Positions 17,829 to 60,673 of a DNA stretch of 64,000 nucleotides are shown here, piece after piece (the first letter of the stretch is position 1; each line of letters begins with the position of its first letter). The DNA is from Alphaproteobacteria bacterium (GTDB lineage: Bacteria > Pseudomonadota > Alphaproteobacteria > SP197), in NCBI GenBank assembly GCA_016869675.1, contig VGDP01000015.1, positions 1-64,000 on the forward strand, written 5' to 3'. The notes under the pieces are model-generated. The model saw only the letters and a program-made list of their open reading frames with translations, had not been told where the DNA came from and searched no databases. The position numbers were made by a program, and so were the translations under genes.

Positions 17829-19237
17829 GCCCCGCCCCCAAGGTACCGGGCGCGGGCGGCGCGGGCGGCCTCGGCCACGCGCGCGGGCGCGGTGCCGCCC
17901 AGGCTGGAACGGCTGGCGACCGAGGCCTCGACCGTCAGCACGGCGCGCGCCGCCTCGGTGATGGCGGGCTCGACCGCCTGCATCGCCGAAAGGCTCAAGC
18001 CGTCGAGGCCGACGCCCTCCGCCTCGGCCAGGCGCACCAGACGGCCGACCGCGTGGTGCGCCTGGCGGAACGGCAGACCGGCCGCGCGCACCAGCCAGTC
18101 CGCTAGGTCGGTGGCGGTCAGGTAGCCGGCCGCGCACGCCGCGCGCATGGCGGCGGGACGCGCCTCGAGGCCCGCGATCATCTCACGGCTGGCGGCGAGG
18201 CAGAGCAAGAGGGTCTCGACCGCGTCGAACAGCGGCTCCTTGTCCTCCTGCATGTCCTTGCCGTAGGTCAGCGCCAGGCCCTTCAGCACAGTCAAAGTCG
18301 CGATCAGCGCACCGCTGACGCGCCCGGCCTTGCCGCGCACCAGCTCGGCCGCGTCCGGGTTGCGCTTCTGCGGCATCATCGAGGACCCCGAGGTCAGCGC
18401 CTCGGGCAGGGTGACGAAGCCGTAGGCCGGCGAGGCCCACAGCACCAGTTCCTCGGCCAGGCGCGACAGGTGCGTGGCCGCCAGCGCCGCCGTGGCCAGC
18501 ACCTCGACCACGAAGTCGCGGTCGGCGACCGCGTCCATCGAGTTCGCGCACGGCCGCGCGAAGCCGAGCGCGCGGGCCGTGGCCGCGCGGTCGATCGGGA
18601 ACGACGTGCCGGCCAGCGCCGCGGCGCCGAGCGGGCATTCGTCGAGCCGCCGGCACGCGTCGGCCACGCGGCCGCGGTCGCGCCCCACCATCTCGACATA
18701 GGCTAGCAGGTGATGGCCGAAGGTCACCGGCTGGGCCGGCTGCAGGTGAGTGAAGCCGGGCATGACGGTGCCGGCGTGACGTTCCGCCTGATCGATCAGC
18801 GCCGCCTGCAGGCCCGCGAGCTCGGCGTCGATGCGCTCGCACGCCGCGCGCGTCCACAGACGCAGGTCGGTCGCCACCTGATCGTTGCGCGAGCGCGCGG
18901 TGTGCAGCCGTCCGGCGGCGACGCCAATCAGCTCGGCCAGCCGCGCCTCGATGTTCATGTGGATGTCCTCGAGATCGTCGCGGAAGGTGAAGCGGCCTTC
19001 GGTGATCTCGGCGGCGACGCGGTCGAGCCCCTCGAGGATCGCCTTACCGTCCGAGGCCGGGATGATGCCCTGGGCGACGAGCATGGCGCAGTGCGCCTTC
19101 GAGCCTTCGATATCCTCGGCCCACAGGCGCCGGTCGAAGCCGATCGAGGGGTTGATGCGCGCCATGACGGCCGACGGCCCAGCTACGAACCGCCCGCCCC
19201 ACAGGGGGTTGACCGTCTTCTTGGTGTCCTCGCTCAC
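17825..19237 (-). CDS. argH: Argininosuccinate lyase
   Basis: The last enzyme of arginine synthesis, splitting argininosuccinate to arginine and fumarate. The 470-residue product begins near [20 protein letters not shown] and contains the fumarase-superfamily signature [20 protein letters not shown]. It also has [17 protein letters not shown] and the catalytic-base region [15 protein letters not shown] at 19237 was chosen because a GGAGG ribosome binding site precedes it and the N-terminus then fits the family. It leads the argH-lptM-lysA-DUF4175 unit and is divergent from an acyl-CoA dehydrogenase gene 118 bases away. Confidence 0.95.
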
Positions 19238-54695: not shown

Positions 54696-55472
54696 TCAGT
54701 CGGCGTCGTCGTCGCGCGCGACGATCACCTCGACGTTGGCCTCGGCGAGCTGGCGGGCGAACGGCTCGGGCGGCGGCGCGTCGGTGACCACCACGTCGAT
54801 CGCGTCCCAGGGCACCACCTTGACGGTCGCGCGCCGGCCGAACTTGCTGGCGTCCACCGCGACCACGGTGCGGTCGGCGCGTCCGACCACGACGCGGCTG
54901 AACGCCGCTTCGGCCAGATCGAAGTTCATCAATCCGTCCCGTTCGTCGATGGCGCCGATGGAAAGCACCGCCGTGCGCACCCGGAACTGCTCGACGAACT
55001 GGGCGGCCGAGGGTCCCAGCGCCGCGCCGTCGTCGGCGCGTAGCTCGCCCCCGGCCATGAACACGCGGTTGCCGTTGCGCGTGGCCAGCGCGCGCGCGAT
55101 GTCGATCGAGTTGGTCACCACCGTCAGGTCGCGGTGGCCGCGCAGTTCGTAGGCGACGTAGGCGGTGGTCGATCCGGTATCCAGCATCACGGACTCGCCG
55201 TGTCCGATCTGGCGGGCCACGACGCGGGCGATCGCCTTCTTGCTGTCGGCGTTCTCGCGCAGGCGCTGCTCGAAGGCGGATTCGCGCATCATGTCCGGCA
55301 GCGTGACGCCGCCGTGGATCTTGATGACCCGGCCGGCGTCGGCGAGGCTCTTGATGTCGCGCCGGATGGTTTCGTCGGAGACTTTGAGCTCGGCGGCGAG
55401 CCGGCTGACGCTGCACGTGCCCAGGCGCGCGACCGATTCCAGGATGCTGGCCTGGCGCACCGACTGACGCAT
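54696..55472 (-). CDS. DeoR/GlpR-family transcriptional regulator
   Basis: The 258-residue product has an N-terminal winged helix of the DeoR type (SVRQASILESVARLGTCSVS, then LAAELKVSDETIRRDIKSL and GRVIKIHGGV). A DeoR-C sugar-phosphate sensor domain follows (IGHGESVMLDTGSTTAYVAY, TVVTNSIDIA, FMAGGELRADDGAALGP, DASKFGRRA). Such regulators usually repress sugar catabolism until a phosphorylated sugar binds, which fits the convergent FGGY kinase. A cluster of GATCGCGA repeats begins 29 bases upstream of its ATG, probably its own operator. Confidence 0.9.
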   Translation of the reverse strand: MRQSVRQASILESVARLGTCSVSRLAAELKVSDETIRRDIKSLADAGRVIKIHGGVTLPDMMRESAFEQRLRENADSKKAIARVVARQIGHGESVMLDTGSTTAYVAYELRGHRDLTVVTNSIDIARALATRNGNRVFMAGGELRADDGAALGPSAAQFVEQFRVRTAVLSIGAIDERDGLMNFDLAEAAFSRVVVGRADRTVVAVDASKFGRRATVKVVPWDAIDVVVTDAPPPEPFARQLAEANVEVIVARDDDAD

Positions 55473-55500
55473 GGCGTGCCCCGTTGCCCGGTGTCACGGT

Positions 55501-55579
55501 TGATCGCGAATGGTAGGGGATCGCGACCGAAGTGGCTAGGGATCGCGAAAATTTTGCCTAACATTGTTTGGGATTGCGC
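55501..55579. promoter_or_regulatory. GATCGCGA operator array upstream of the DeoR-type gene
   Basis: The octamer GATCGCGA occurs three times in the same orientation at 55502-55509, 55519-55526 and 55541-55548, and a looser copy (GATTGCGC) at 55572-55579. Spacings are 17, 22 and 31 bases. The array sits in the 244-base gap between the DeoR-type regulator and the divergent betaine-type binding protein. AT-rich sequence between copies (AAAATTTTGCCTAACATTG) is a plausible promoter. Autoregulation by the DeoR protein is the simplest reading. Confidence 0.55.
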
Positions 55580-55716
55580 ACTTTCGCCCTTGCCAGGGCG
55601 CGGGAACTTGGTCTCTGATCGTGGGAATCCCGGGCAGGGCAATCGCGTCCCCGTGCCCGGGCGGCGCGTAGCGCTGGCACGCCGTGCGCGCGACGCGGCC
55701 AATGAGGGAGGTCATT

Positions 55717-56658
55717 ATGACCAGGCTTATCGCGGCGTTGGTCCTCGCCGGGGCGATGGGGCTCGCCGCGCCGGTGCGGGCGGACGTCGAATCGACCGAT
55801 CCGATCAAGCTCACCATTCACGACTGGACCGGCCAGTACGTGACGACCCACATCATGGGGCGCGTGCTCCAGGAGATGGGCTACAACGTCGAGTACGTCC
55901 AGGCCGACTACATCGCCCAGTTTGCCGGGCTTGAGGCGGGCGACCTGCACGTGGCCATGGAGATCTGGGAGACCACGGGCAAGGACGCGCTCAATGCCTC
56001 GGTCGCGACCGGCAACACGGTCGACCTGGACGAGACCGGCATGGCCGCCAAAGAGGAGTGGTGGTACCCCTCCTACGTCAAGGAGCAGTGCCCGGCCCTG
56101 CCCGACTGGACAGCGCTGAACGACTGCGCCGCCGTGTTCGCCACCGCCGAGACCGGTGACAAGGGCCGTTACCTTGCCGGACCGGTGACGTGGGGCGGCT
56201 ATGACGAGGAGCGCGTCGAGGCGCTCGGCCTGAACTACGAGGTCGTGCACGCCGGCACCGACGCCGCCATGTTCGCCGAGCTGGAATCGGCGGTGCAGCG
56301 CAAGGCGCCGATCCTCTTGTGGATCTACGCGCCGCACTGGGCGCCTTCGAAGTACGAGGGCGAGTGGATCGAGTTCCCGACCTACACCGACGCGTGCTAC
56401 CAGGACCCCGCCTGGGGCACCAACCCCGACCTCGCCTACGACTGCGGCAAGCCGTTCGGCTGGATCAAGAAGGTCGGCTGGGCCGGCGGCGAGGCGAAGT
56501 GGCCGGGCGCCTACAAGGCGATCCGCAACTTCCAGATCGACAACGCCACAATGGGCCAGCTCATCACCCGGATTGATCTGGACGGCGAGACGCTTGAGGA
56601 CGTGGTCGAGGACTGGATCAAGAACAACGAGAGTGTCTGGCGCGCCTGGACACAGTAA
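55717..56658 (+). CDS. Glycine betaine/choline-type ABC substrate-binding protein
   Basis: The 313-residue product has a signal peptide (LIAALVLAGAMGLAAPVRAD) and an OpuAC-type ligand domain: IKLTIHDWTGQYVTTHIMGR, EMGYNVEYVQADYIAQFAGL, VAMEIWETTGKDAL, EEWWYPSYVKEQCPALPDW. Several tryptophans and tyrosines are placed as in quaternary-ammonium binding pockets. GAGGGAGG before the ATG is a strong ribosome binding site. It heads the operon with ATPase, fused permease and choline-kinase-like enzyme. The ligand could be betaine, choline or a relative. Confidence 0.88.
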   Translation: MTRLIAALVLAGAMGLAAPVRADVESTDPIKLTIHDWTGQYVTTHIMGRVLQEMGYNVEYVQADYIAQFAGLEAGDLHVAMEIWETTGKDALNASVATGNTVDLDETGMAAKEEWWYPSYVKEQCPALPDWTALNDCAAVFATAETGDKGRYLAGPVTWGGYDEERVEALGLNYEVVHAGTDAAMFAELESAVQRKAPILLWIYAPHWAPSKYEGEWIEFPTYTDACYQDPAWGTNPDLAYDCGKPFGWIKKVGWAGGEAKWPGAYKAIRNFQIDNATMGQLITRIDLDGETLEDVVEDWIKNNESVWRAWTQ

Positions 56659-56727: not shown

Positions 56728-57795
56728 ATGGTGGACAAGGCAGTGAACGGGACCGGCGCGAACGCTGGGGCGCACGGCGCGCTGGCGTTGCGCAACGTCT
56801 GGAAGCTCTACGGACCCGGCGCCGAGCAGGCGTTGCGGCCGGGTTCGGCCCAGCCGGCCGCCGCCGACCTGGCGGCCAAAGGCATCATCACGGCGGTGCG
56901 CGACGTTTCGCTCGACGTTCACGCCGGCGAGATCTTCATCATCATGGGTCTCTCTGGCTCGGGCAAGTCGACGCTCGTGCGCTGCATGACCCGGCTGATC
57001 GAGCCGACCGCCGGGCAGGTGCTGTTCCACGGCCAGGACTTGCTGCATATCAGCGAGCGCGAGTTGATCGAGATCCGCCGGCACAAGATGGGCATGGTGT
57101 TCCAGCACTTCGCCCTGCTGCCGCACCTGACCGTGCTGGATAACGTGGCGTTCCCGCTGGAGATCCAGGGCATGGCGCGGGCCAAGCGGTACGAGCACGC
57201 GCGCCGCGTCATCGAGTTGGTTGGCCTGGCTGGGCGCGAATCCTACTTCCCGCGCGAGCTGTCCGGCGGCCAGCAGCAGCGTGTCGGCATCGCGCGCAGC
57301 CTGGCGGTCGAACCCGAGGTCTGGTTTCTGGACGAGCCCTTCAGCGCGCTCGATCCCCTGATCCGGCGCGAGATGCAGGACGAGTTCCTCCGCCTGCAGA
57401 ACATGCTGAAGAAGACGATCGTCTTCATCACCCATGACTTCGACGAGGCGATCCGCCTGGCCGACCGCATCGCCATCATGAAGGACGGCGTGATCATCCA
57501 GATCGGCACGCCCGAGGACCTGGTGACCCGTCCCGCCGATGGCTACGTCGCCGAGTTCACGCGTGACGTGCCGCGCGCCAAGGTGCTGTCGGTGCGCAGT
57601 ATCATGGAGCCGGTCGACGGCCCGCTGATCGCCGAGAACCAGGTCGCCGCCGCCGCCAAGGTCCAGGACATCGCCGACGAGGTCATGCGCCGCGGCACCG
57701 CGGTCGCTGTGGTCGACGCGGCCGGCGCGACCATCGGCCTCTTGACCAAGGACGCCGTGCTCGCGGCCCTGCTCGGGCGCGAGACGCGGCGATGA
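56728..57795 (+). CDS. Glycine betaine-type ABC transporter ATPase (ProV/OpuAA-like)
   Basis: The 355-residue ATPase has a longer N-terminus than generic ABC proteins. It shows Walker A GLSGSGKST, the ProV-type VFQHFALLPHLTVLDNVAF, the signature LSGGQQQRVGIARSLAV, Walker B VWFLDEPFSALDPLIRREMQ and the H-loop FITHDFDEAI. A C-terminal regulatory part (about 265-355) resembles CBS modules that sense ionic strength in OpuA. Its stop overlaps the permease start as ATGA. Confidence 0.92.
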   Translation: MVDKAVNGTGANAGAHGALALRNVWKLYGPGAEQALRPGSAQPAAADLAAKGIITAVRDVSLDVHAGEIFIIMGLSGSGKSTLVRCMTRLIEPTAGQVLFHGQDLLHISERELIEIRRHKMGMVFQHFALLPHLTVLDNVAFPLEIQGMARAKRYEHARRVIELVGLAGRESYFPRELSGGQQQRVGIARSLAVEPEVWFLDEPFSALDPLIRREMQDEFLRLQNMLKKTIVFITHDFDEAIRLADRIAIMKDGVIIQIGTPEDLVTRPADGYVAEFTRDVPRAKVLSVRSIMEPVDGPLIAENQVAAAAKVQDIADEVMRRGTAVAVVDAAGATIGLLTKDAVLAALLGRETRR

Positions 57796-59777
57796 CCTTG
57801 GCCCTGCGCGCGGCCCGGCCGGCCGCGCGCCCCTGGACCTGGGTCTGGCTGGCATTGGGGGTGGTCACGGCGGCGCTGATGGCGTTCGCAACGCCCGACT
57901 CGCCATGGCTCGCTTACCCCAAGGCGTGGGAGCTGCCGCTGCGTCTGTGGGTCAGCGACGCCATGAAGTGGCTGGTCAACCGCTTCGACCTGGGACCGTT
58001 CACGTTCAAGGAGCTGACGCGCGGCCTGGCTTGGCTGCTGGACTGGCCGCTCGCGGCGGCGCGCGGCCTGCTGGTGGACGGATTCTCCTTCTCCTCCGAC
58101 CCCAAGGCGCCCGCGCTGCTCCCTTCGCTCTCGTGGCTTGGCGTCACCGCGCTTATCGCCGCCCTGGCGTGGCGGGTCGCGGGCGGGCGCTTGGCCGCGG
58201 TGGTCGGCGCGTGCTTCGTCTACATCGCCGTCTTCGGCTGGTGGCCGAGCGCCATGGTCACGCTGGCCTCGACCGCCATCGCCGTCGCCTTCGGCATCGC
58301 CGGTGGACTCGCGCTGGGCATCCTGGGCTACCGCCGCCGCTGGTTCGCGCGCGCCATGATGCCGGTGCTCGACCTGATGCAGACGGTGCCGGTATTCGCG
58401 TACCTGGTGCCGGTGCTGTTCCTGTTCGGCTTCGGGTCGGTGGCCGCGATGATCGCGACCATCATCTACGCCATGCCGCCCATGGTGCGCGTGACCATGC
58501 TGGCGCTCGAGCAGGTGGCGCACGAGACGGTCGAATTCGGCCATATGGCCGGCTGTTCGCGCCGGCAGATGACCTGGAAGGTGCTGGTGCCGTCGGCCAG
58601 CGCCGGCCTGATGGTCGGCGTCAACCAGGTGATCATGCTGTCGCTCAACATGGTCATCATCGCCTCGATGATCGGCGCGGGCGGGCTGGGCTTCGACGTG
58701 CTCGACAGCCTCAAGCGGCTCGATGTCGGCAAGGGGTTGGAGGCCGGCATCGCCATCACGCTCCTGGCCATCGCGCTCGATCGCCTGAGTCAGGCGGTGG
58801 CCCTGCGCGCGCCGCCGACCCACGGGGCGGACCCGGAACGCCGGCGCTGGCTGATCGTCGCCCTGGCCATGGTCGTCGTGCCCACGGCGCTGGGCGGCGC
58901 GGTGCCGGCGTTGGCCGCGTACCCCGAGGACTGGACGCTGACCACCGGGCGGCTGCTGGCGCAGGCGGTCGAGTGGATCAACGTCCACTTCTTCGAAACC
59001 CTCGAAGCGGTCAAGACTGCGCTCATCGCGAGCGTACTCGCCCCGATCAAGGGCATCCTCGGCGCGCTGCCCTGGCCGGCGGTGGTGGCGGCCGCGGCGC
59101 TCGGCGGCTACCGCCTGGGCGGCGCGCGCCTGGCGGCGCTCGCCGCGGCCCTGGTCGCCTTCATCGCGGTGACCGGCAATTGGGAGAAGGCGGCGATCAC
59201 GGTCTACCTGGTCGGCGTCTCGGTCATCGTCGCCGGCGCGATCGGCCTGCCCATCGGCATCTGGGCGGCCGACCGGCCGCGCGCCAACCGCGTGATCCAG
59301 GCGATCATTGACACGCTGCAGACCCTGCCCTCGTTCGTCTACCTGATCCCCGTGGTCATGCTGTTCCGCGTCGGCGAGTTCTCGGCGATCATCGCGGTGA
59401 TCGCCTTTGCCGTCGCCCCGGCGATCCGCTACGTGGTGCTCGGCCTCGGCCAGGTGCCGCCATCGCTGATCGAGGCGGCGCGCGCCACCGGGTGCAGCCG
59501 CGGCCAGATCCTGCGCAAGGTGCGCCTGCCGCTCGCCTTCCCCGAGATCATGCTGGGCCTGAACCAGACGGTGATGATGGCGCTCAGCATGGTGGTCATC
59601 ACGGCGCTGGTGGGCACGCGCGACCTGGGCCAGGAGGTTTATATCGCGCTGGCCAAGGCCGACACCGGCCGGGGCCTGGTGTCGGGCGTGTGCGTCGCCT
59701 TTATCGCCATCGTGGTCGACCGCCTGGTCGGCGCCTGGGCGGCCCGGCGCAAGCGCGAGCTGGGTCTGGGCGCATGA
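57792..59777 (+). CDS. Fused double permease of the glycine betaine-type importer
   Basis: The 661-residue membrane protein contains two complete ProW-type permease domains in tandem. Each has its own coupling motif: EFGHMAGCSRRQMTWKVLVP in the first half and EAARATGCSRGQILRKVRLP in the second. Each half ends with a QxVMMALSMVVI-type helix (NQVIMLSLNMVIIASMIGAG; NQTVMMALSMVVITALVGTR). One polypeptide can thus replace a ProW homodimer. Its start overlaps the ATPase stop and its TGA overlaps the next ATG. Confidence 0.92.
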   Translation: MTLALRAARPAARPWTWVWLALGVVTAALMAFATPDSPWLAYPKAWELPLRLWVSDAMKWLVNRFDLGPFTFKELTRGLAWLLDWPLAAARGLLVDGFSFSSDPKAPALLPSLSWLGVTALIAALAWRVAGGRLAAVVGACFVYIAVFGWWPSAMVTLASTAIAVAFGIAGGLALGILGYRRRWFARAMMPVLDLMQTVPVFAYLVPVLFLFGFGSVAAMIATIIYAMPPMVRVTMLALEQVAHETVEFGHMAGCSRRQMTWKVLVPSASAGLMVGVNQVIMLSLNMVIIASMIGAGGLGFDVLDSLKRLDVGKGLEAGIAITLLAIALDRLSQAVALRAPPTHGADPERRRWLIVALAMVVVPTALGGAVPALAAYPEDWTLTTGRLLAQAVEWINVHFFETLEAVKTALIASVLAPIKGILGALPWPAVVAAAALGGYRLGGARLAALAAALVAFIAVTGNWEKAAITVYLVGVSVIVAGAIGLPIGIWAADRPRANRVIQAIIDTLQTLPSFVYLIPVVMLFRVGEFSAIIAVIAFAVAPAIRYVVLGLGQVPPSLIEAARATGCSRGQILRKVRLPLAFPEIMLGLNQTVMMALSMVVITALVGTRDLGQEVYIALAKADTGRGLVSGVCVAFIAIVVDRLVGAWAARRKRELGLGA

Positions 59778-60673
59778 GCCACGCCGCGGCGGCCGCCGCG
59801 CGCGTGCGCGCCGAAGGGCTTCGCTGCTGGCACGGTCCCGTGATCGCGCGGCCCGTGGGCGGCGGCATCACGAACCACAACCTGCTGGTCACCGACGGCG
59901 CCGACAGTTTCGTCGTGCGCATCGGCGGCGACATCCCGGTGCACGGCATCCTGCGCTTCAACGAACTGGCCGCCAGCCGCGCCGCCCACGCGGCCGACCT
60001 GGCGCCCGAGGTGATCCACGCCGAGCCGGGCGCCATGGTGCTTCGCTACATCTCGGCCCGCGCGTTCGAGGAGGCCGACGTGCGCGCGCCCGCGAACCTG
60101 GTCCGCGTCGTGCCGCTGCTGCGCCGCTGCCACCGCGACGTGACGCGCCTGATCCGTGGGCCGGTGCTGACCTTCTGGGTGTTCCAGGTCAACCGCTCCT
60201 ACGGCTTTCAGCTGCGCGACGACAACCACCGCCTGGTCGGCGACCTGGCACGCCTGATCGCGATCAACGACGCGCTGGAGACGGCGATCGGCCCAATCGA
60301 CCTGGTGCTGGGGCACAACGACCTGCTGCCGGGCAACCTGCTGGACGACGGCGAGCGCCTGTGGCTGATCGACTGGGAGTACGCCGGCTTCAACAGCCCG
60401 CTGTTCGACCTGGCCAACCTGGCGTCCAACAACGACCTGCCGCCCGAGGCCGAGGACTGGCTGCTGGGCGCCTACTTCGACCGCGCGCCCGACGACGTTC
60501 TGCGCCGGCGCTACCACGCCATGAAGTGCGCCTCGCTGCTGCGCGAGACGCTGTGGAGCATGGTCTCCGAGATGCACTCGACGCTCGACGTCGACTACGT
60601 CGCCTACACGGCCAAGAACCTGGAGCGCTTCGAAGCCGCGCACGCCGCGTACCAAGCCCGCTTCGGGCGTTAG
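59774..60673 (+). CDS. Choline kinase-like phosphotransferase
   Basis: The 299-residue product is an aminoglycoside-phosphotransferase/choline-kinase-fold enzyme. It has a nucleotide-binding N-lobe (PVGGGITNHNLLVTDGADSF with the Lys replaced region VVRIGGDIP), the catalytic loop LGHNDLLPGNLL and the metal site LIDWEYAGFNSPLFDLANLA. The ATG overlaps the permease stop (ATGA), so it is translated with the importer. This coupling suggests that the imported compound is choline or a similar amino alcohol which is phosphorylated on entry; that is inference. It converges on folC. Confidence 0.85.
   Translation: MSHAAAAAARVRAEGLRCWHGPVIARPVGGGITNHNLLVTDGADSFVVRIGGDIPVHGILRFNELAASRAAHAADLAPEVIHAEPGAMVLRYISARAFEEADVRAPANLVRVVPLLRRCHRDVTRLIRGPVLTFWVFQVNRSYGFQLRDDNHRLVGDLARLIAINDALETAIGPIDLVLGHNDLLPGNLLDDGERLWLIDWEYAGFNSPLFDLANLASNNDLPPEAEDWLLGAYFDRAPDDVLRRRYHAMKCASLLRETLWSMVSEMHSTLDVDYVAYTAKNLERFEAAHAAYQARFGR

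Follow-up and report, generated by a model that had tools for sequence, protein, structure and literature searches.

The intergenic region at 55473-55716 of the analyzed stretch of alphaproteobacterial DNA (64,000 nucleotides, hereafter the window) probably serves as a control region, with diverged sites, that is shared by a local DeoR-family repressor and a divergent operon for a TmoX/OpuAC-like importer and a choline-kinase-family protein. Our analysis established to which families the genes belong, that their synteny is conserved, and that relatives have at this position a conserved direct-repeat element with a phasing of about 10 bp. An octamer array in the same region appears to be a lineage-specific feature of this genome; its role is uncertain and it adds little by itself.

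Genes flanking the probable control region

The region is bordered by the regulator gene on one side and by the importer and kinase genes on the other:

54696-55472, minus strand: DeoR-family transcriptional regulator, 258 aa (PF08220 HTH_DeoR and PF00455 DeoRC)
55717-56658, plus strand: periplasmic binding protein of an OpuAC/TmoX-like importer (PF04069; phmmer E 3.9e-88 over 303 residues to 4xz6)
56728-57795, plus strand: importer ATPase (TIGR01186 above cut-off)
57792-59777, plus strand: importer permease with two permease domains (PF00528, two stretches)
59774-60673, plus strand: choline/ethanolamine kinase family protein (PF01633, 3dxq, synteny)

The assignment of the gene beside the array to the DeoR type, made in an earlier note on this DNA, is borne out by two domains scoring above cut-off, PF08220 for the N-terminal HTH (E 7e-17) and PF00455 for the C-terminal DeoRC sensor (E 1.6e-48). 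The regulator stayed below the cut-off for all 12 NCBIfam equivalog families listed (best score 183 bits versus a cut-off of 331) and is therefore none of their named members (GlpR, AgaR, SrlR, UlaR, DeoR and others). Its closest relative in the comparison is the regulator of locus L005, which is 71% identical and has the identical recognition helix SDETIRRDIK; the helix of the L014 regulator reads SDETVRRDIKS. An order-level search for closer relatives added none to those already compared. The structure 4xz6 matched by the binding protein is presumably TmoX of Ruegeria pomeroyi.

We compared 92 loci including the window. One source was a search of 61 genomes, among them that of the window, from which the 11 best relatives (L005-L015) were taken; the other was a scan of named genomes, which gave 80 loci. 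Weaker regulator matches (L016-L033) were left out of the synteny and motif counts. The binding protein gene is divergent from the regulator in 38 loci and the kinase gene in 44, while 10 loci have neither arrangement. Six of these 10 are from Kiloniella, where regulator, importer and kinase genes all point in one direction. In most relatives, the choline-kinase-family gene either adjoins the regulator or sits in the importer operon. Downstream of the regulator in the window, the other strand encodes an FGGY kinase, an SBP family 5 protein and a member of the enolase superfamily. Neither the FGGY kinase nor the enolase-superfamily gene had a match in the 91 other loci, several of which are short, so that absence there is not proof; for the SBP family 5 protein there was one weak match among them, far from the regulator (L080, 23%). 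Together, the importer and kinase synteny and the missing FGGY and enolase matches suggest that the regulator appears to go with the importer and the choline-kinase-family gene, not with sugar-acid genes. The connection of sugar-acid with osmolyte genes proposed in the earlier note thus found no backing among these partly short loci, nor did the gaps before the enolase, SBP family 5 and FGGY genes hold the octamer or a match to the family motif described below. At one kinase-divergent locus (L056, 2249-5628), the kinase gene is followed by a frame that by eye resembles an FAD-dependent dimethylglycine/sarcosine dehydrogenase whose end is GcvT-like.

A phased direct-repeat element in relatives

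The motif search used expectation-maximisation, allowed each region up to four sites against a second-order background, and was trained on 32 non-redundant importer-type intergenic regions (from 36), with the window and L005 left out. The element shared by these relatives is AAANCCACANA (TNTGTGGNTTT on the importer strand), built from approximately 103 sites and arranged in direct repeats with a spacing of about 10 bp. Among same-strand motif pairs less than 45 bp apart, the distance was exactly 10 bp in 21 of 64 and 10, 20-21, 30-31 or 40-41 bp in 44 of 64, while opposite-strand pairs in relatives showed no peak at 10. The word AAACCACA was enriched in the same set, occurring in 12 of 32 regions versus 0.3 expected, as was TGTCAAC (13 of 32 versus 1.2 expected), the complement of a TTGACA-type -35 element for the importer. 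A first expectation-maximisation search had collapsed into A-rich sequence and was discarded, and word enrichment in the kinase-divergent set was set aside because it was dominated by shared ancestry.

The kinase-type intergenic regions, cut from 44 to 15 for redundancy, were held out of training. They contained 26 motif matches, compared to a mean of 8.8 and a maximum of 15 in 30 shuffles. In Kiloniella, the matches sit between regulator and importer, with a clear excess over shuffles in one of the six gaps and P values of 0.10-0.31 in the others; the remaining loci with neither arrangement (L012, L015, L036 and L085) were outside the motif tests. Matches in relatives lie 18-210 bp before the regulator start (5th to 95th percentile), with a median of 88. 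The two regulators compared above for their recognition helix are both associated with the element, since L005 carries a significant tandem pair (score 10.56, P 0.002) and L014 the canonical motif. In L007, a palindromic repeat with GGATCGCGATC, which has the look of a REP-type or short mobile element, lies within 320 bases past the regulator 3' end, a position unrelated to that of the array in the window.

The relatives thus have direct repeats with the 10-11 bp periodicity of the published DeoR-family operator layout, for which the excerpted text of PMC3870299 describes the RhaR motifs as two imperfect direct repeats. As judged from these sequence comparisons, AAANCCACANA with its 10-bp direct-repeat phasing may mark a widespread alphaproteobacterial DeoR-family regulon (L034-L113 and others). 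Literature searches found no description of this DeoR-family regulator for an operon with a TmoX-like importer and a choline-kinase-family gene.

The octamer array and probable diverged sites in the window

The array of three exact copies and one looser copy of an octamer, all in one orientation within 78 bases and starting 29 bases upstream of the regulator, was confirmed by its coordinates. GATCGCGA occurs on the plus strand at 55502-55509, 55519-55526 and 55541-55548, and the looser fourth copy, GATTGCGC, at 55572-55579; the distance from the first copy to the regulator ATG (start codon at 55472) is 29 bases. The array thus extends over 55502-55579 and is smaller than the interval 55473-55716 to which the earlier note had assigned it. 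Successive copies start 17, 22 and 31 bases apart. Copies 2, 3 and 4 have a longer unit in common, GGGAT(C/T)GCG(A/C), which begins at 55517, 55539 and 55570; copy 1 has no preceding GGG and hence falls outside this set. The sites of the region are as follows:

55502-55509, plus strand: octamer copy 1, GATCGCGA, no GGG before it, 17 bp to copy 2
55510-55538, minus strand: candidate regulator promoter, TAGCCA-17 bp-TACCAT, with copies 2 and 3 in and just before it (by eye; sigma-70 scan negative)
55517-55526, plus strand: octamer copy 2 as GGGATCGCGA
55539-55548, plus strand: octamer copy 3 as GGGATCGCGA, 22 bp from copy 2
55565-55579, plus strand: octamer copy 4, TTTGGGATTGCGC, the looser copy; contains one of the window's two best family-motif matches (55565-55576, minus strand, score 5.16)
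55590-55619, plus strand: candidate importer-operon promoter, TTGCCA-18 bp-TCTGAT (by eye; scan negative; TTGACA is enriched on the same strand in relatives)
55618-55629, minus strand: best match to the relatives' motif, GATTCCCACGAT (GTGGGAATC on the plus strand), outside the array (score 5.22)

No candidate passed in a scan of the region for sigma-70 promoters and intrinsic terminators, and because the scan does not find them, both promoters are read as candidates only. A structured RNA leader was also considered and rejected: there was no Rfam match, and the folding of 55620-55720 is not unusual (z 0.57). Between the array and the importer gene lies an 11-base inverted repeat, CCCGGGCAGGG / CCGTGCCCGGG (55629-55661), in a region that folds no better than shuffles.

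The relatives' element is weak in the window, where it is represented by the two single matches listed above; the best has a chance probability of 0.12 and the second-best of 0.009. The best tandem pair reaches a score of 1.85 (P 0.31), compared to at least 7.2 in the 32 training regions, from which the motif itself was built. Same-strand GGGA(A/T) sites at 55517, 55539, 55570 and 55623 are spaced close to whole helical turns. Their distances of 22, 31 and 53 bp, the last between copy 4 and the GGGAA at 55623, correspond to 2.10, 2.95 and 5.05 helical turns; the chance of such phasing is approximately 0.013 for sites that were chosen post hoc, with a fifth same-strand site at 55602 left out. 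Copy 1, at 55502, falls out of phase and probably does not belong to the phased set.

These observations are consistent with a shared control region in which the relatives' direct-repeat element would be the operator of the repressor. The repressor would block both promoters and would be released by a metabolite, most likely the phosphorylated product of the kinase, as its family and gene neighbourhood suggest. The window would retain a diverged version of the operator in the form of the four GGGA(A/T) sites, of which the octamers may be a lineage-specific extension. The influence of the array on the importer, which the earlier note had considered, is supported in part: the importer is a likely shared target, given the divergent region with phased repeats in relatives, but a role of the octamers in it is unproven.

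Alternative readings of the array

It is quite possible that the three exact copies of this common GC-rich word came together by chance and that, for regulation, only 55565-55576 and 55618-55629 matter. GATCGCGA is indeed frequent, with 661 copies in the 3,486,062 bases (3.49 Mb) of the genome and 19 in the 64-kb window versus 8.7 expected from shuffles. Any octamer present three times within 50 bp was found at two places in the window versus 0.2-0.4 expected by chance, according to Markov resamples of order 1, 3 and 5 (maximum of two in 40 each), a test that allows for the post hoc choice of the octamer. The other such place is 17850-17889, where GCGCGGGC/CGCGGGCG occurs three times within 40 bases. 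The octamer is, moreover, present in the intergenic regions of only one of 81 relatives (L087), and sites linked to it have family-motif scores of about -3.3 or lower; none of the three exact copies matches that motif. On the other hand, the genome holds no second close same-strand triple of GATCGCGA. Genome-wide, there are three same-strand pairs of the form GATCGCGA-N6..24-GATCGCGA, of which two fall in the array and one is isolated elsewhere; from the octamer densities, about 1.2 pairs and some 0.002 triples would be expected. The array is also placed where relatives have their repeats, and copies 2-4 combine a common longer unit with near-whole-turn spacing. From the rarity for this word and the post hoc triple counts it follows that the cluster is real and unusual for GATCGCGA, yet the surprise is modest for a 64-kb reading.

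We consider it unlikely that GATCGCGA is itself the operator of the regulator, as the earlier note had proposed, with a DNA specificity that changed in this lineage. The octamer does sit in the interval in which relatives have their operators, and the family motif is weak in the window. However, the recognition helix is shared with L005, which has a tandem TGTGGNTTT-type pair and no GATCGCGA in its intergenic region, and is near-identical to that of L014 with its canonical motif, which argues against a changed DNA specificity. With its rarity among relatives and its below-zero motif scores added, the octamer is not supported as the regulator's own site. A related and somewhat less likely scenario is operator turnover, in which the regulator kept the recognition helix of its TGTGGNTTT-repeat relatives and came to use, at an unchanged position in the promoter, a GC-rich GGGATCGCGA-type array. 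If true, this would be a natural example of a change in operator sequence with an unchanged recognition helix.

That the octamers are sites of another DNA-binding protein acting on the same promoter is improbable: same-orientation repeats over a candidate promoter, unlike the family motif of the local regulator, would fit such a protein, but there is no candidate protein and, bar the one isolated pair, no second genomic cluster to point to a regulon. The extended unit TCGCGATCCCNTANCA likewise gives no regulon signal, because with up to two mismatches it occurs at 28 places genome-wide versus 24 for a reversed control. The spaced two-unit pattern has a single occurrence in the genome, which is the array, and GGGATCGCGA has 29 copies, two of them within the array.

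Comparison with known systems and implications

Returning to the shared control region with diverged sites, its layout is most likely ordinary in kind, namely the divergent control region of a local regulator with diverged repeats. RhaR, as portrayed in the excerpt of PMC3870299, is likewise a DeoR-family local regulator beside its operon, with 10-11 bp imperfect direct repeats like those in the relatives studied here. In contrast, its target there is the L-rhamnose operon, the motif sequences are described as unique to each group, and the window itself has no clear 10-bp pair. The importer appears to be of the same class as the TMAO importer TmoXWV of R. pomeroyi, given the similarity of the binding protein over 303 residues, and the protein may bind TMAO. 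The regulators described for R. pomeroyi in the excerpted text of PMC13390433 are the GntR-family TmoR, which acts on tmm, and the AraC-type TmaR, whereas in the window a DeoR-family regulator and a choline-kinase-family gene lie beside the importer.

Overall, if our reading is right, the direct-repeat element would provide an operator motif, open to testing, for a DeoR-family regulator that is widespread in Alphaproteobacteria and acts on genes for a TmoX-like importer and a choline-kinase-family protein.
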